From contig NZ_JAHWGH010000018.1 in assembly GCF_019334305.1 (NCBI RefSeq), positions 72,009-136,008 on the forward strand: DNA of 64,000 bases, read 5' to 3'. The stretch is from Rossellomorea orangium (GTDB lineage Bacteria; Bacillota; Bacilli; Bacillales; Bacillaceae_B). Numbering within the stretch: position 1 is the stretch's first letter; each line of letters opens with the position of its first letter. The notes beneath the pieces are model-generated. The model did no database searches and was not told the DNA's origin. It worked only from the letters and a program-made list of their open reading frames with translations. The translations under genes were made by a program, and so were the position numbers. This document shows positions 35,462 through 42,538 of this stretch, in pieces.

Positions 35462-36703
35462 TTGATTACATTAATCAAATCATTACTGGTCAATATTACG
35501 ATTTTATTTTCTTTCACTTATAACGCCAATGTTTTGTTTCCTTTTAAGGATACACAAAAATCCGCCTATAAACACAAGATCACTTATGGACTGGTTGCAT
35601 CATTTGGCGCACTCTTATGTATGCTCTATCCAATTGAAACCCTTGGAGAGACTCACTTCGATCTGAGAATGATTGCGATATTGATTGTGACGATCTATGC
35701 CGGTTTACTATCCGGATCTATCGTCCTCTCTTGCGTCATCATATTCCGCTATATTATCGGTGGTCCTTACGTCGGCGTGGGGATTGCTGTTTCAGTGCTG
35801 GCATTTGTGATTGGTATCCTCTTCCGCAGCTTTCTATTGAAAACACAGTTTAAGTTAATAGTAAGTACGATAATCTTTATCATTCACGCCATTCTGTACA
35901 TCATCATCATCAACATGTTCGTCCCGATATTGCATCTGCCATTTTATTTCATTTATTTTTCCGTTTTCTACTTTACATTTCTTGCGTTGGTATTCATTAT
36001 TGAGCATTTGATCCGCACGAATAAACAAATAGAAGAGATGGTCTATATGGATAAACTGAATATGGTCGGACAGATGGCTGCATCGATAGCCCATGAGATA
36101 CGCAACCCCCTTGCAACTGTGAGAGGATTTATACAGCATCTAAGCGAGGATTCAGAGGATGACCGATTAAAGAAATATTCTCCTCTCATCCTGAATGAAC
36201 TGGATCGAACGAACAAAATCATTACAGATTATCTAAGTGTCGCAAAACCGAGCAGCTTTAAATTATCCAGGCTCAACCTTAATAATATTATTAGGGATTG
36301 TGTGGATTTGTTAAGGCCGTTTGCAGCGTATTCCAACACTTCGATCCATTTCGAAAAGGTCGGATCCCACTATATTAAGGGTGATGAGGATCATATGAAG
36401 CAAGCCATCATGAATGTGATTAAAAACGGTATTGAATCCATTGAAGACCGAGGCGAAATATCTATCAATCTCAAAGAAGATCCCTTTACACAATCCGTCA
36501 TCATTATTATTTCAGATAATGGAAAAGGAATGACCGGAGATGAATTGAAGAAAATAGGTTTACCCTTTTATACTACTAAGACCAAAGGGACGGGACTCGG
36601 AAGTATGGTTACAAATAAGCTTATTCGTGAAATGGGTGGAATGATCGAATACGAAAGTGAATTAAATAGAGGAACAGTTGTCAAGATTCGACTGCCGGTT
36701 TAA
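35462..36703 (+). CDS. Sporulation-type sensor histidine kinase (KinB-like)
   Basis: This 413-residue kinase has about six membrane segments of the 5TMR-LYT type (residues 1-180), a HisKA domain with phosphorylated H211 in ASIAHEIRNPLATVRGF, and an ATPase domain (N box KNGIESI, G1 DNGKGM, G2 GTGLGS). No response regulator gene is next to it, as is usual for kinases feeding the sporulation phosphorelay. It starts at TTG with GGAGG 8 bases upstream. Assignment to KinB rather than another orphan kinase is uncertain. Confidence 0.82.
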   Translation: MITLIKSLLVNITILFSFTYNANVLFPFKDTQKSAYKHKITYGLVASFGALLCMLYPIETLGETHFDLRMIAILIVTIYAGLLSGSIVLSCVIIFRYIIGGPYVGVGIAVSVLAFVIGILFRSFLLKTQFKLIVSTIIFIIHAILYIIIINMFVPILHLPFYFIYFSVFYFTFLALVFIIEHLIRTNKQIEEMVYMDKLNMVGQMAASIAHEIRNPLATVRGFIQHLSEDSEDDRLKKYSPLILNELDRTNKIITDYLSVAKPSSFKLSRLNLNNIIRDCVDLLRPFAAYSNTSIHFEKVGSHYIKGDEDHMKQAIMNVIKNGIESIEDRGEISINLKEDPFTQSVIIIISDNGKGMTGDELKKIGLPFYTTKTKGTGLGSMVTNKLIREMGGMIEYESELNRGTVVKIRLPV

Positions 36704-37199: not shown

Positions 37200-37300
37200 A
37201 AGGAAATCGACTAATTTACATAATCAAATTACAGTCAACCACACTCTCCACCTTTTCTATTTAAAACCAATAGGCCAGGACAAAAATGTTCAACCTAAAT

Positions 37301-37356
37301 AAAAATCCGAACGAGGATTCGAATCCTGTTAAGGTTAACGAATCGTTCGGATTTTT
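37301..37356. terminator. Bidirectional terminator
   Basis: 14-bp arms AAAAATCCGAACGA/TCGTTCGGATTTTT surround an imperfect inner hairpin. Confidence 0.85.
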
Positions 37357-37468
37357 ATTGTATTAAAACCATATTGAGGGATTTTCCAGGTACCAGCAGT
37401 TGATAGGAGTGCAACGGAGACTTCTGGCTTGGGTATATAAAGTTATGCCCCGGCCTCATTAATTGCTC

Positions 37469-39322
37469 CTATTCCAGAAACCTTAATAAATCACCATACA
37501 AAATATCATCTGACATCCTTAATTCTTTACGTACCAATTCCTTAAATGGTTCGCATCTTGATTCACTGACTGATTTCTCGCTCTTCTTACTGTAACAAAC
37601 ATTGTCTTGAAAGATGTATTCCTTAGTAATGAAATCTCCATCTCTGAAAATGACTGGATGATTTTCATCACGGGTGAACAGACTGTGACCGAACGAAAGG
37701 GTATCCTTCGATCCAATTCCCAATAAATGAAGGACGGTGGCCCGAATATCAATCTCTCCTCCAATGGTTTCAATCGTTTTACCTTCTTGTCCGGGAACAT
37801 GGATAATAAGGGGAACCTGCTGAAGCTTGGCATGATTCACTGGAGTATCCTTCTGACCTAGGAGCTCGAACACACCTTGTTCATATTTTTCGGAAATCCC
37901 GTAATGATCACCATAAAGGACCACAACCGTATCATCATACAACCCATTTGCTTTAAGATTCTCAAATAAAGCCTTAATCGCTTCATCCTCATATCGCACC
38001 GTTGTCACATACCGGTTCACAACATCTTCTCTCGTGTCCGCCTGTTCAATGAACTGATCTCCTTCTTCCAACAGAAAAGGGAAATGGTTTGTCAATGTGA
38101 TAAGACGGGTATAGAATGGCTTGGGAATTTTCTCGAGAAGGGACGTCGTCTGTTCGAAAAAAGGAATGTCCTTTATACCGTAATTCACCGAATTTTCTTC
38201 CGTTACATTGTAATCTCTCTTGGAGAAATAACGATCGTACCCAAGAGCCTTATACATGTATTCACGGTTCCAGAATGTCCGGTCATTCCCGTGAAAAACC
38301 GCTGCAAAATAATCTTTCTTCTCTTTCAGGATATGAGGTAGGCTCCTGTATGTATTATCCGGTTTCCTTACAAAAGCTGATCCGCTTGATAAAGGGTATA
38401 ATCCCGTATCAATCATAAATTCTGCATCTGATGTTTTCCCCTGTGCCGTCTGATCATAAATATTGCTGAAGTATAAACTGTCCTTTATCAATGAATTTAG
38501 AAACGGTGTAATTTCTTCTCCATTGACTTTTTGGTTGATAACAAAATTCTGAGTGGATTCCATACTGACTAAAATCAGGTTTTTCCCTTCAGCAACCCCA
38601 AATAAGTCAGAAGGTTTTTTCTTTGAGGATTTTGTGTATTGAATGGATGCCTCCGTGTCCGATTTACTTGCAAGAAGCTGTGACAATGGGTTCGTTGCTG
38701 CAATCCCGATATCGTAAAGGTGGTAATTAAATGGGCCAACAGATTTCACCAGTTGCTCCCTGTCATATGACTCAGCAAATAAATATGGGGATTTTAGTAA
38801 TCCAATTATTAAAGTAATCAATAATAAAAACATACTAAATCCTAAGTAGTTTAATTTCCATATTCGTGACAAATTGACGGATTCCGTCTTCTTTGTCTTG
38901 AGTATCCAGCCTGCTAATATGAGATCAGACAATAAGAGAACATCCCAGGGGCTCATCAATTCAAAGGTACTCGGGCCAATCCCCCCCACATTTTTAAACT
39001 GAAAAAGGATTGGGACTGTTATGAAATCCGAATAAAACCGGAAGTACAGAAGGTCCCCGTACAGGAGCCCGGTTGCAATCCCCATAATAAGAACAAGGAG
39101 AAATGGTTTCACCCTTTTAAAGAAGTAAAAGCTGAATCCGATCAGGAGCATTAACGATCCAACCGGATTGAAAACAATAAGTAATAAGTCCAGGAAAGAT
39201 TCTATTTGAAGGTTAAAACCGATAAGCGATACAACGACGGTTTTTATCCATAGTGACAGTATTGCAACACCCAGCAATTGATTTTTTCTTAATCCAATAA
39301 GAAAATCTTTCACCCTACTCAT
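37469..39322 (-). CDS. LtaS-like lipoteichoic acid synthase family protein
   Basis: This 617-residue protein has five N-terminal membrane segments (residues 1-190) and an extracellular sulfatase-fold domain. LtaS enzymes transfer glycerophosphate from phosphatidylglycerol. Key residues are visible: metal-binding glutamate in LILVSMES, catalytic threonine in QGKTSDAEF, histidine in TLTNHFPF, and the DH pair in LYGDHYG. Its start overlaps the upstream aminotransferase stop (ATGA), so translation is coupled. It is the third gene of an operon with a PlsY paralogue behind an ECF-type promoter. The acceptor may differ from normal lipoteichoic acid. Confidence 0.87.
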   Translation of the reverse strand: MSRVKDFLIGLRKNQLLGVAILSLWIKTVVVSLIGFNLQIESFLDLLLIVFNPVGSLMLLIGFSFYFFKRVKPFLLVLIMGIATGLLYGDLLYFRFYSDFITVPILFQFKNVGGIGPSTFELMSPWDVLLLSDLILAGWILKTKKTESVNLSRIWKLNYLGFSMFLLLITLIIGLLKSPYLFAESYDREQLVKSVGPFNYHLYDIGIAATNPLSQLLASKSDTEASIQYTKSSKKKPSDLFGVAEGKNLILVSMESTQNFVINQKVNGEEITPFLNSLIKDSLYFSNIYDQTAQGKTSDAEFMIDTGLYPLSSGSAFVRKPDNTYRSLPHILKEKKDYFAAVFHGNDRTFWNREYMYKALGYDRYFSKRDYNVTEENSVNYGIKDIPFFEQTTSLLEKIPKPFYTRLITLTNHFPFLLEEGDQFIEQADTREDVVNRYVTTVRYEDEAIKALFENLKANGLYDDTVVVLYGDHYGISEKYEQGVFELLGQKDTPVNHAKLQQVPLIIHVPGQEGKTIETIGGEIDIRATVLHLLGIGSKDTLSFGHSLFTRDENHPVIFRDGDFITKEYIFQDNVCYSKKSEKSVSESRCEPFKELVRKELRMSDDILYGDLLRFLE

Positions 39323-40929
39323 TGCATTACCTTTGTATCAATCATTTTCTGAAATTCTTTGTTGATCATCGCCATTGCATTCAAAACCTTTCTTTCATTA
39401 TGCGATCCCATTAGTGCTATCTGTACCCAATTTTTGTTGAGGAGATATCCACTTTCATAACTTAATAAGATACCATTCTTTTTACAGGCATCCCCGAATT
39501 GTCTACTACACTGTTCCCTATTTAGTTCAATCGTAATCACACCGGGTGAATACGATTCACCTTCTAGTATTGTTAACCCCCCTTCCTTTAATAACTGCCT
39601 AACTTTCTTTGATAGTTCGAGATTTTTTTCATAATCGACCACCCTCATCGCTTCCTTTAGAGCACTCAGAAGGTTGGATGAGTGAGTATATGGGACTCCT
39701 TTGTTCTCCGTATACATTCCCACATCCAGGTATCTTGGAATCGATTGATTTGGTTTCATTTCATCACGATGAAAAATAAGCGCCAGTCCGGGATAAGATC
39801 CGAGTGCCTTACCACTAACCGAGGTGGCAAGGTAAACATTTTTAAGATCAATCGGAACTGCCCCAACTGAACTGCACGCATCTATACAGAGCTCTACATT
39901 GTATTTATGGCAGAGTGAAAGCAGTTCCCCAATATCATATAAGTACCCTGTAGAAGTTTCACAATGAACCGTCCACAGCCATTTTATGCCCGGATCACAT
40001 TGAAGGACAGCCTCTATTTCTTCTATTGTAATTATTTCATTCCATTCCTTTTCAATGGTTTGAAAAGATAAATCGAATCGTTTTCCGTGGTCCACCAACC
40101 TCGATCCAAATTCTCCATTCGCAAGAATCAGGCCGTTTCCAGCAGCACTTTTCAATTGGGCGGCCACCATGTCATTCGCAAGGGTACCGGTGCCCACTGC
40201 AACCTGTACATGATTCGCATGTGTCATTTCACATAAGTTCTTTCTTATTTCTTCCATTTCTTTCAGAAAAACGCTGCTCCTATGAGATAATGCGTCTGTC
40301 TTAAATGCATCTTCCACCTTTTTATGACGAGGTACGGGACCTGGGAGTAGTGAATATGGACGTTCTTCAAACGTCTTCCGAATCATTAAGCGCTGAAACG
40401 CTTTTGTCGAATTCTCAAAGCTTTCACGAGTCAGGTACATAGGCTGAAACCTCGCATGTTCATCACCAACAAGATTGGCAAACGGACGAAAGCCGATACG
40501 TTTATATAGTTTAAGTTGACGAACGGTACCTGAAATGAGTGCAGTCGTATATCCCATCTCTAAACAATATGATACCAGGCATTCACATAATTGATAAAAT
40601 ACCCTCGTACTTCTATACTCTTCTTTTACAGACAGTAGTCTGATTTCACATGGAACGGCATGTTGAGGTAAATACTTATCCAAGTCCTTCAGCTTTTGAT
40701 CTAACGAGAAAGGGCGTTCTGACCGAACAGCGATCATTCCGACAACTTCAGTTTCAGCCTTTGCTATCACATATGTATTCTCATCATGAAACCTATCTTT
40801 AAGCTTGCGACTATCATTCTTTTGATGTTGAGGGATCTCCTCTACAAAAGTTTGATAATTTAAGGAATATATTTGTTGAAACTCATCTGGATCGCTAGCA
40901 ATCTTATATTTAAGAGCCTGATTACTCAT
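39319..40929 (-). CDS. Fusion of FeeM/GNAT-like acyltransferase and class V aminotransferase
   Basis: The first ~190 of 536 residues form a GNAT-fold domain (NYQTFVEEIPQH, CEIRLLSVKEEYR, LYKRIGFRPF). It resembles N-acyl-amino-acid synthase/autoinducer-synthase types more than acetyl-CoA GNATs, because the RxxGxG loop is absent. Residues ~195-525 form a class V PLP enzyme (LLPGPVPRH, VHCETSTGYLYDI, CIDACSSVGAVPID, Schiff-base lysine in SVSGKALGSYPG). One polypeptide could make an amine and then acylate it (inference). AGGAGG precedes the ATG; PlsY ends 17 bp upstream and the LtaS-like gene overlaps the stop. Confidence 0.78.
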   Translation of the reverse strand: MSNQALKYKIASDPDEFQQIYSLNYQTFVEEIPQHQKNDSRKLKDRFHDENTYVIAKAETEVVGMIAVRSERPFSLDQKLKDLDKYLPQHAVPCEIRLLSVKEEYRSTRVFYQLCECLVSYCLEMGYTTALISGTVRQLKLYKRIGFRPFANLVGDEHARFQPMYLTRESFENSTKAFQRLMIRKTFEERPYSLLPGPVPRHKKVEDAFKTDALSHRSSVFLKEMEEIRKNLCEMTHANHVQVAVGTGTLANDMVAAQLKSAAGNGLILANGEFGSRLVDHGKRFDLSFQTIEKEWNEIITIEEIEAVLQCDPGIKWLWTVHCETSTGYLYDIGELLSLCHKYNVELCIDACSSVGAVPIDLKNVYLATSVSGKALGSYPGLALIFHRDEMKPNQSIPRYLDVGMYTENKGVPYTHSSNLLSALKEAMRVVDYEKNLELSKKVRQLLKEGGLTILEGESYSPGVITIELNREQCSRQFGDACKKNGILLSYESGYLLNKNWVQIALMGSHNERKVLNAMAMINKEFQKMIDTKVMQ

Positions 40930-40946
40930 TATTGTACCTCCTATGT

Positions 40947-41516
40947 TTAAACTGAATGATGAAATGACCGATTGTGGAAAACAAGGACAGTCATGAATAG
41001 AAGCCCCAAGCCTGCTGATAATATGAATGAATCCTCAATCAGAAATGATGTGATCGGTATGGTCCCCATTGAAATGAAGCCCGCCATGGTGTACCTCCTG
41101 ATGACTAGATATAAAACACCCATCATGATGGCGAAGATTCCGATACAGAGCGGGCAGAGAAATAAAGCTGAAGCCAAGTATGCTACAACCCCTTTTCCTC
41201 CATGAAATCCAAGTTGTACCGGAAACAAATGACCAATCAACACCAAAATCGAGCTTAAAACTAGATAGCCCTCTCCCTTTAGTAGGGTGGAGGTGATAAG
41301 TAATGCCAGGATCACTTTACCTGCATCAATCAGGATTGTTAGTAAGAACCCCTTCTTACCTGTCACCCTTCCTGCATTAGTAGCTCCTACATTTCCGCTT
41401 CCAACCTCCCTGATATCTTTTCCACTGAGTATCCTCACTACATAATAAGCTCCTGTTATACTGCCCAGCATGTAAGAAATCACTAGGATCACACTTACTG
41501 TCAAGCTATGAATCAT
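40947..41516 (-). CDS. PlsY-family glycerol-3-phosphate acyltransferase paralogue
   Basis: This 189-residue membrane protein carries PlsY motif 1 (MLGSITGAYYVVRILSG), motif 2 (REVGSGNVGATNAGRV) and motif 3 (FHGGKGVVAYLA). PlsY moves an acyl group from acyl-phosphate to glycerol 3-phosphate. The housekeeping plsY normally lies near parE; this copy leads an envelope operon instead, so its acceptor may be another hydroxyl. An ECF-type promoter lies 33 bp upstream and GGGAG precedes the ATG. Paralogue status is inferred from context. Confidence 0.83.
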   Translation of the reverse strand: MIHSLTVSVILVISYMLGSITGAYYVVRILSGKDIREVGSGNVGATNAGRVTGKKGFLLTILIDAGKVILALLITSTLLKGEGYLVLSSILVLIGHLFPVQLGFHGGKGVVAYLASALFLCPLCIGIFAIMMGVLYLVIRRYTMAGFISMGTIPITSFLIEDSFILSAGLGLLFMTVLVFHNRSFHHSV

Positions 41517-41548
41517 CTTCCATGCTCCCTGCTTTTTATATATGTTAA

Positions 41549-41577
41549 TAGACGTTTGAATGAAGTGAAAAGTTTCA
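41549..41577 (-). promoter_or_regulatory. ECF-sigma-type promoter of the plsY-like operon
   Basis: TGAAAC (41572-41577) and CGTCTA (41549-41554) are 17 bp apart on the minus strand, 32 bp before the start codon. This fits the SigM/SigW/SigX-type pattern TGAAAC-N16/17-CGTC known in B. subtilis. It lies in the short gap after the YwaF-type gene and predicts induction by envelope stress. Confidence 0.7.
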
Positions 41578-41582
41578 TAAAT

Positions 41583-42302
41583 TTACCTTTTTCCCTCTTC
41601 TTTTCTCCTTATTAAGAAAAAAGGGGCATAGAGAATGAGAAAAATAAAAAAGCTGATCGCTTCAAGAGAAATGAGGTACCATGGATATTCCCCCAAATAG
41701 TCGATCGGACTTGCATTGTTAGGTTTATGCATTAGAAACATGTAATTCGCGCCTACCAGTTTATTAACCGTATAAGCTACTATCGCAATTCCATTCAAAG
41801 CAAGGAATGCCCTGATCAAGGAACCGAATGTCAGACTGAATTTCTCTACCCAAACCATGTATAAACAAGCCAATACAATCGTCAAATGTGCCAGGAAAAA
41901 TTGAAAATACCTGAAGTGAGGAAATCCAAAAAACAACTCTGGAGTAAGAATGGCAATAAATGCACCTGACATACTTGCAAAGAAACTCACCTCAAAGATT
42001 CTATAGCTATTGGTTAATAACATGATCGTACAGAGATACAAGGATAGTGAACATAATTGGAAAGGAAGATTAATGGTAAGGTCCCAATGACCATTTATGA
42101 AATACCACGCCTGAAAAGAAACCTCACTCAAAATAAGTATAACAACCAGCAACCACTTCAACAAACTTCCCTGAATTTGGTTTCTGCTTATGTATAACCC
42201 CATCATGCATCCCACAGAAACAACAATGGCCGCAATATGAGAAACCGAAAACAACTCAAACGGATACTCCCCATACCTGAAATTCAAAATCTCCCGAAAC
42301 AT
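41583..42302 (-). CDS. TIGR02206/YwaF-family membrane protein
   Basis: This 239-residue protein has about seven membrane segments and the family's conserved QAWYFINGHWDLTINLPFQL region (in part, about residues 75-94). The start MFREIL is chosen because a G-rich site (GGGGTGG) lies just upstream; an in-frame extension of 29 codons runs through a copy of the GGACGGACC repeat and has no site. The function is unknown. Confidence 0.75.
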   Translation of the reverse strand: MFREILNFRYGEYPFELFSVSHIAAIVVSVGCMMGLYISRNQIQGSLLKWLLVVILILSEVSFQAWYFINGHWDLTINLPFQLCSLSLYLCTIMLLTNSYRIFEVSFFASMSGAFIAILTPELFFGFPHFRYFQFFLAHLTIVLACLYMVWVEKFSLTFGSLIRAFLALNGIAIVAYTVNKLVGANYMFLMHKPNNASPIDYLGEYPWYLISLEAISFFIFLILYAPFFLIRRKEEGKR

Positions 42303-42366: not shown

Positions 42367-42444
42367 AAGGGACGGACCTCATTTTCCAAGTTTCTATTCC
42401 TTATATACAGCCATTTTCCACCAATCTGACAGGGACGGACCTCC
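42367..42444. repeat. Two direct copies of the GGGACGGACCTC motif
   Basis: Copies at 42367-42380 (AAGGGACGGACCTC) and 42431-42444 (AGGGACGGACCTCC) are in the same orientation 64 bp apart, in the leader of the YwaF-type gene. The inner segment contains the end of a 26-codon reading frame with a good site (42394-42474), probably a remnant. Confidence 0.7.
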
Positions 42445-42498: not shown

Positions 42499-42533
42499 AA
42501 AAAAAAATCCCATTCCAAAATTGAAATGGGATT
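42499..42533 (-). terminator. Terminator of the alpha/beta hydrolase gene
   Basis: The hairpin AATCCCATT/AATGGGATT is followed by a long T-run on the minus strand, directly after the stop. Confidence 0.85.
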
Positions 42534-42538
42534 CAAGA

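Follow-up and report, generated by a model that had tools for sequence, protein, structure and literature searches.

A conserved plsY paralogue and acyltransferase–aminotransferase fusion in Bacilli: a candidate pathway for an amide analogue of phosphatidic acid

Introduction

What purpose could be served by a second plsY gene packed against a gene that fuses an N-acyltransferase to an aminotransferase? This question is raised by a 64,000-nucleotide (nt) stretch of Rossellomorea orangium DNA (assembly GCF_019334305.1, contig NZ_JAHWGH010000018.1, positions 72,009 to 136,008; hereafter the window). Its minus strand carries, in order, a TMEM164-like gene, a plsY paralogue, a fusion of a GNAT domain with a class V pyridoxal phosphate (PLP) domain, and an ltaS paralogue. 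The original prediction for this DNA read the last three genes as an envelope-lipid operon. Their content was borne out by the open reading frames (ORFs) and by domain matches (PF02660; FeeM and Aminotran_5; Sulfatase and LtaS), as was their spacing, with a 17-nt gap between plsY and the fusion (40930–40946) and a 4-nt ATGA overlap between the fusion and ltaS (39319–39322). The outer limit of 41577 was misplaced, as plsY starts at 41516, 61 nt downstream. The accompanying interpretation, a doubly acylated amino lipid made in the manner of ornithine lipids, is partly supported by the present analysis. The plsY paralogue and the fusion constitute the conserved unit, with ltaS as a frequent partner, and we tentatively propose, as a reading somewhat short of probable, that the two genes form a pathway for an amide analogue of phosphatidic acid. 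An open-library search found no literature on this gene set, most subscription papers being outside its scope, and the fusion is annotated, in one record, only as an "aminotransferase class V-fold PLP-dependent enzyme".

Conservation and linkage of the gene pair

A family-level search, in which all genomes belonged to one genus, matched the fusion in 34 of 36 genomes, that of R. orangium included. Broken copies occur in the genus as fragments (G006), splits (G035 and G020) and an in-frame stop (G005), and the nearest named relatives by fusion identity are Bacillus sp. NTK074B (87%) and R. aquimaris (79%). In the order sample, a full-length fusion without an internal stop was present in 66 of 397 genomes (E <= 2.8e-138; 15 in the genus and 51 in other genera), the next matches covering the PLP domain only (E >= 4e-28), apart from two pieces of the split G035 copy. 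The class sample contained the fusion in 49 of 398 genomes (E <= 4.3e-134; 44 outside the order, two with an internal stop), and the phylum sample in 3 of 398, namely R. orangium and two members of one genus outside the class. Across these three samples, the fusion spans 21 family groups. No fusion relatives were found in viral contigs; in the plasmid collection, a 690-kb record of Cytobacillus spongiae was the single full match, and Cupriavidus gave a partial one.

All 33 other genus loci with a fusion match and all 51 loci from other genera, representing 15 other families, were fetched, together with 25 intact loci from the 44 genomes of the class sample that lie outside the order and have a full-length fusion. 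Outside the genus, plsY lies directly upstream of the fusion on the same strand at 51 of 51 loci, within 52 nt at 44 of them (boundaries from tblastn), and the pair is present at 31 of the 33 genus loci. Because this linkage holds in 15 families whose flanking genes differ, the co-conservation of plsY and the fusion is far above chance.

The ltaS gene behaves differently. It directly follows the fusion at 32 of 33 genus loci, two of which (L110 and L138) have it split into two ORFs. Outside the genus it does so at 22 of 51 loci, in 9 of the 15 families, and among the 25 class-level loci, where plsY adjoins the fusion at 17, it does so at 2 (L169 and L170). The complete trio is found at 30 of the 33 genus loci, 26 of them with an unbroken fusion (L138 with its split ltaS among these), and at the 22 outside loci. 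Thus, the expectation that the three genes are conserved together was borne out in part. Since ltaS is missing at 29 of the 51 outside loci, one of which (L070) keeps a remnant, it is not part of the core, and its candidacy as a fixed member of the unit was rejected.

Neighbouring genes at loci without ltaS or PlsY were considered as functional clues and set aside as varied and uninformative. Those scanned encode beta-propeller, EamA, RNase J, Clp protease, Na+/solute symporter, Yip1-like, BrkB, cytochrome bd, ABC-2 transporter, FAD oxidoreductase and dicarboxylate symporter proteins; an SDR and a DHFR gene occur at two loci that do carry ltaS. Five loci of family f49 (L176, L177, L179, L181 and L182) hold more divergent fusions, 42–45% identical to the nearest reference and without an adjoining PlsY, and their neighbours change, with a symporter, an ABC-2 transporter and an FAD oxidoreductase in the three scanned. 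Additionally, two genus genomes without the fusion, G001 (L189) and G023 (L190), keep the TMEM164-like gene and plsY; plsY and ltaS are left side by side at L189, and no ltaS match occurs in the stretch fetched for L190.

Active-site residues of the linked PlsY proteins

The PlsY paralogue of the window matches PF02660 (G3P_acyltransf) at 117.2 bits against a cut-off of 24.1 and scores below the NCBIfam equivalog cut-off of TIGR00023 (96.2 against 137.2), and a second, housekeeping PlsY is encoded in the same genome. According to Li et al. (2017, PMC5700162), Aquifex PlsY clamps the phosphate of glycerol 3-phosphate (G3P) with S35, R45, K104 and N180, contacts its 2-hydroxyl with S142 and H177, and binds acyl-phosphate with H92, T41 and the K104 loop. 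The window paralogue keeps S35, T41, R45, H92, K104 and H177, but has Gly in place of S142 and Ser in place of N180, leaving the G3P pocket (S35, R45, K104, N180, S142 and H177) incomplete.

This pattern recurs in the linked family. Of the 99 PlsY neighbours and the window's own, L091 and L092 were removed by a length filter, giving a set of 98; genus near-copies are included in this count and in that of the 106 fusions discussed below. The broken-fusion genus loci L107, L108 and L110 were omitted from the 81-protein set, and L139 also from the 106-protein alignment. S35 and H92 are kept in all 98 linked PlsYs, K104 in 97, H177 in 95 and R45 in 94, and S142 in none (Gly in 87, Met in 8, Ala in 2 and Leu in 1). 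Housekeeping PlsYs retain S35, T41, R45, H92, K104, S142, H177 and N180 in 30 of 30 cases each, and a tree in which 15 of these 30 were used separates all linked PlsYs from them (support 99/96). Among 12 further paralogues unlinked to the fusion, the seven with an intact clamp keep S142, and the other five combine V142 with an altered clamp. The main residue pattern of the linked PlsYs would be explained by an acceptor that has a G3P-like phosphate and no hydroxyl at carbon 2. Because an N-acyltransferase is encoded next door, a 2-amide is the simplest such acceptor.

PlsYs of other kinds were also encountered. S142-less PlsYs stand away from the fusion at L191–L194, the fusion lying elsewhere in the genome in G015 and G027 and no fusion having been found in G038 and G068. 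Furthermore, a third PlsY type at L220–L224, in several Bacilli, has a GVKNAGASN-like or GHGNAGASN motif, V142 and an altered phosphate clamp.

The fusion protein and its invariant glutamine

The fusion matches FeeM at residues 19–153 (39 bits; PF21926 cut-off 27) and Aminotran_5 at residues 213–393 (PF00266; 48.8 bits, cut-off 21.5). FeeM is matched by 35 of the 36 aligned fusion members at E <= 0.001, and the GNAT domain also matches Acetyltransf_5 (30.4 bits over 22.4), which we take to be the family holding OlsB. Sequence searching found no solved GNAT structure for this domain, and defence models returned weak SspA/DndA matches of the PLP domain only.

The PLP-binding Lys374 and Asp350 are each present in 106 of 106 intact fusions. 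Equally invariant is Gln503, which occupies the column of the class V substrate-carboxylate Arg. At this position, Arg is found in 17 of the 20 relatives without a GNAT domain that were fetched, in the aligned 2-aminoethylphosphonate (AEP) transaminases shown, and in Escherichia coli SerC, where R335 falls there in a forced global alignment (hhalign probability 52%). R403 of plant phosphoserine aminotransferase binds the substrate carboxylate (PMC6043687), as does Arg347 of the plant enzyme AtAGT1, which is described as found in all aminotransferases (PMC6797613). Replacement of this Arg by Gln503 fits a substrate with a neutral group at this site; serinol phosphate, for instance, has a hydroxymethyl where phosphoserine has its carboxylate. 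As regards known families, the best named model for the PLP domain is PhnW-AepZ (TIGR03301; 138.6 bits, below the cut-off of 360.8), and the SerC model of NCBIfam scores 33.4 against a cut-off of 253. Separately, chain A of PDB 9os7 (555 aa), which bears the label methionine-tRNA ligase, can be aligned with the PLP domain and has Arg at the Gln503 column.

The three relatives with Gln rather than Arg are nucleotidyltransferase–PLP fusions of 610–620 aa. At the nine loci fetched for this sister family (L245–L253, for example L246:5964-9274), all nine proteins carry this Gln, and each is directly preceded by a gene from a single cluster, whose one scanned member is a CDP-alcohol phosphatidyltransferase by Pfam. 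A second nucleotidyltransferase gene is displayed at seven of the nine loci. This arrangement suggests that Gln-type PLP domains make a phosphorylated amino alcohol for lipids, which would be N-acylated by the GNAT fusion and nucleotide-activated by the sister enzyme. The sister locus is possibly a headgroup pathway that could be misnamed as an AEP transaminase.

A proposed pathway

Gene content, linkage, domain families and active-site residue patterns are observed directly here; all substrates and products are inferred from them, and sequence evidence alone cannot establish the product. In the proposed route, the PLP domain would transaminate dihydroxyacetone phosphate (DHAP) to serinol phosphate, the 2-amino analogue of G3P. 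The FeeM-like GNAT domain would then N-acylate serinol phosphate with a long chain, replacing PlsC at carbon 2, and the PlsY paralogue would acylate the 1-hydroxyl from acyl-phosphate to give 1-O-acyl-2-N-acyl-serinol 3-phosphate. Headgroup addition or phosphate removal would fall to housekeeping enzymes. At loci with ltaS, the encoded enzyme may take the amide lipid for its anchor or as its source of glycerophosphate, and a glycerophosphate polymer on the amide lipid is possible.

The first step has precedents: RtxA converts DHAP to serinol phosphate (PMC3222319), and human phosphoserine aminotransferase makes serinol phosphate from DHAP very slowly (PMC9283133). Only somewhat less likely than the two-gene pathway itself is the broader view that many Bacilli hold a second route to a phospholipid core via serinol phosphate, supplying parallel membrane lipids or lipoteichoic-acid anchors, and that the sister enzyme nucleotide-activates the same amino alcohol for a lipid headgroup.

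Points against the pathway and alternative explanations

Several observations weigh against the proposed pathway. A transaminase needs an amino donor, and Gln503 would be a poor partner for the carboxylate of a donor; the PLP domain may therefore catalyse a different kind of reaction. This difficulty with an ordinary amino-acid donor is the chief weakness of the serinol phosphate model. Serinol phosphate is likewise favoured, not proven, over its isomer 3-amino-2-hydroxypropyl phosphate. In the linked PlsYs, N180 is kept in 25 of 98 and lost in 73, the window's included, and T41 is kept in 44 and replaced by Arg in 54, so the PlsY acceptor could differ more from G3P; the seven unlinked PlsYs of family f49 additionally carry Ala for R45 and Asp for N180. 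S142-less PlsYs occur without the fusion in G001 and G023, which have lost it, and in G038 and G068, which have no fusion match, and 8 of the 25 class-level loci have no adjoining PlsY. The His-Arg motif, which contacts the phosphate in phosphoserine aminotransferase, is present in the fusions (R217 in 106 of 106) and also in 17 of the 20 relatives without a GNAT domain; being non-discriminating, it was dropped as evidence for a phosphate substrate. An AlphaFold model of the fusion, built from two sequences, has a mean pLDDT of 40. Finally, matches to the phosphoenolpyruvate (PEP) mutase family at E <= 1e-38 were found in 9 of the 27 genomes searched, that of R. orangium not among them, and matches at 1e-55 or better in four of the nine sister-family genomes, the remaining five comprising four with matches of 9e-17 or weaker only and one with none.

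The alternative that survives best, although we consider it unlikely, is that the plsY paralogue encodes just another G3P acyltransferase, while the N-acyl amine made by the fusion is unrelated to it, such as a FeeM-like signal or surfactant, the two genes sharing an operon because both draw on the fatty-acid supply. The retention of S35, R45 and K104 by most linked PlsYs is consistent with it, as are FeeM being the best GNAT match, the class-level fusions without an adjoining PlsY and the four genomes with an S142-less PlsY and no fusion. However, S142 is lost in every linked PlsY and kept in the housekeeping set and in all seven clamp-intact extra paralogues. The linkage across 15 families also argues against two unrelated functions, and seven of the eight class-level genomes without an adjoining PlsY still carry an S142-less PlsY elsewhere.

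We give distinctly less credence to an N,O-diacylated amino acid of the ornithine-lipid kind, to which the LtaS-like enzyme would add a glycerophosphate headgroup or polymer, as the original prediction envisaged. The Acetyltransf_5 match and the presence of ltaS after the fusion at 22 outside loci speak for it. It is disfavoured by the invariant Gln at the carboxylate-Arg position, by an O-acyltransferase that is a PlsY with most of its phosphate clamp, and by the absence of ltaS from 29 loci. The missing Arg, taken with the clamp, points to a phosphorylated amino alcohol without a carboxylate, so an amino-acid substrate seems less likely. OlsA-type O-acylation is not supported: the enzyme belongs to the acyl-phosphate-using PlsY family, and the other acyltransferase-like gene of the operon is TMEM164-like. 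The more general idea of one N-acylation and one O-acylation on one small molecule does find support in these patterns.

Similarly doubtful is a variant in which the PLP domain converts glyceraldehyde 3-phosphate to 3-amino-2-hydroxypropyl phosphate, which would be N-acylated at carbon 3 and O-acylated at carbon 2 by PlsY. The nearest named relatives of the PLP domain, the PhnW-AepZ enzymes, act on a terminal aldehyde, which favours this variant. Yet PlsY positions the 1-hydroxyl of G3P, and with the 2-hydroxyl contact lost, an amide at carbon 2 fits better than one at carbon 3.

Searching the R. orangium genome revealed no PEP mutase, only a partial match (8e-15) in a 445-aa frame, presumably isocitrate-lyase-like by its size, and one match below the cut-off; phosphonates are thereby disfavoured for this genome only. 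A phosphonolipid route, with the PLP domain as an AEP transaminase and N-acyl-2-aminoethylphosphonate as the product, is very improbable: PhnW-AepZ is the best named model, PntC-AEPT sets a precedent for a fused AEP transaminase (PMC6697681), and nine genomes have PEP mutase-family matches at E <= 1e-38, but the model score is far under its cut-off, the R. orangium genome has no match of that strength, Arg is retained opposite Gln503 in the AEP transaminases shown, and AEP offers no hydroxyl to PlsY.

Comparison with known systems

The amide-lipid pathway proposed here resembles the PlsX/PlsY/PlsC route, with which it shares the PlsY family, the acyl-phosphate pocket (H92 and the K104 loop), most of the phosphate clamp and, presumably, two acylations on a three-carbon phosphate core. 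It differs in lacking the S142 contact and in that a GNAT enzyme, not PlsC, is predicted to attach the second acyl group, with nitrogen as the site; the genome also retains its housekeeping PlsY. Ornithine-lipid synthesis (OlsB then OlsA; OlsF) likewise pairs a GNAT-type N-acyltransferase with an O-acyltransferase, but here the latter is a PlsY and the PLP domain has no carboxylate-binding Arg. The GNAT domain of the window exceeds the Pfam cut-off of FeeM N-acyl amino acid synthase and, unlike FeeM, has a PLP domain as its fusion partner and is encoded next to plsY. Serinol phosphate made by the N-terminal domain of RtxA, a DHAP aminotransferase, or by Campylobacter Cj1437, which we take to catalyse the same reaction, is likened by reaction alone; there it goes to rhizobitoxine or capsule rather than to a lipid core. 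PhnW and PntC-AEPT (Tde1415, PDB 6pd1) share the class V PLP domain, and in Tde1415 the amine that it makes is used by the enzyme to which it is fused (PMC6697681); they differ from the R. orangium enzyme in the Arg-to-Gln exchange at the substrate-anion site, in its acyltransferase partner and in the lack of a PEP mutase in the genome.

If confirmed, this chemistry would represent an unrecognised kind of bacterial lipid with one fatty acid linked to nitrogen rather than oxygen. Lipids with a carbon-2 amide should be resistant to mild alkali and to phospholipases of the A2 type. For this reason, part of the membrane lipids or teichoic-acid anchors could exist in a form that saponification-based lipid analysis would misread. 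The loss of S142 in PlsY and the presence of Gln503 in the PLP domain offer search handles for the pathway in other genomes.

The LtaS-like and TMEM164-like proteins

The LtaS-like protein matches Sulfatase at 141.8 bits against a cut-off of 25 and, over nearly its full length, the Gram-positive LtaS model NF053595 at 667.6 bits, below the equivalog cut-off of 970. Its closest solved structure is 2w8d (398 bits), compared with 188 bits for the lipoteichoic acid (LTA) primase 4uop. QGKTSDAEF, TFWNR and YGDHYG align with the catalytic-site motifs of solved LtaS; we take these to be the catalytic Thr and metal motifs. By these comparisons, the protein appears closer to the polymerase than to the primase, with its motifs intact. 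It differs from LtaS and the LtaP primase in being a separate paralogue tied to a lipid-core operon, and the same genome encodes three other LtaS-like proteins and one more distant sulfatase-family protein. An unrooted tree was built with 22 linked proteins from other families of the order, two from the class level, the window's and four other genus rows; 23 linked proteins form one group (100/99) and six fall with their own paralogues, a hint that the plsY–fusion pair recruited an LTA synthase more than once.

The TMEM164-like protein scores 181 bits with PF14808 and 169.4 bits with TIGR02206 (cut-off 75), as scanned on the longer ORF that opens at 42389; its start was set at the ATG at 42302 by reading the sequence. 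The gene is present at 25 of the 33 other genus loci, at L058 and in Cytobacillus spongiae. In the window, 66 nt separate it from plsY, and a pattern scan found no terminator-like site between the two, so it probably belongs to the same unit as plsY, the fusion and ltaS.

Locus layout

The features of the locus are collected in Table 1. The hairpin and the inverted repeat probably bound the unit; both are pattern matches, and the terminator scan gave six sites against a mean of 4.9 in shuffled sequences, which is about equal.

Table 1. Features of the locus, in window coordinates
Feature	Position	Strand	Basis or detail
LtaS-family glycerophosphotransferase paralogue, 617 aa	37469..39322	-	Sulfatase and LtaS models
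GNAT–PLP fusion, 536 aa: FeeM-like GNAT ~1-185, class V PLP ~190-536	39319..40929	-	
PlsY paralogue, 189 aa, predicted O-acyltransferase for a G3P-like phospho-amino-alcohol	40947..41516	-	PF02660
TMEM164-like (TIGR02206) membrane acyltransferase, probable first gene of the unit	41583..42302	-	PF14808, TIGR02206
Inverted repeat, likely terminator after ltaS	37298..37359	.	Perfect 17-nt arms, 28 nt apart
Terminator-like hairpin after the upstream alpha/beta-hydrolase gene	42505..42534	-	13-pair stem then T run; arms 92% complementary

Beyond the inverted repeat, a gene for a 5TM-type sensor histidine kinase (35462-36703) is convergent to ltaS and adjoins the operon across much of the genus. In Cytobacillus spongiae, its place beside the operon is occupied by a gene for an ATP-binding protein.

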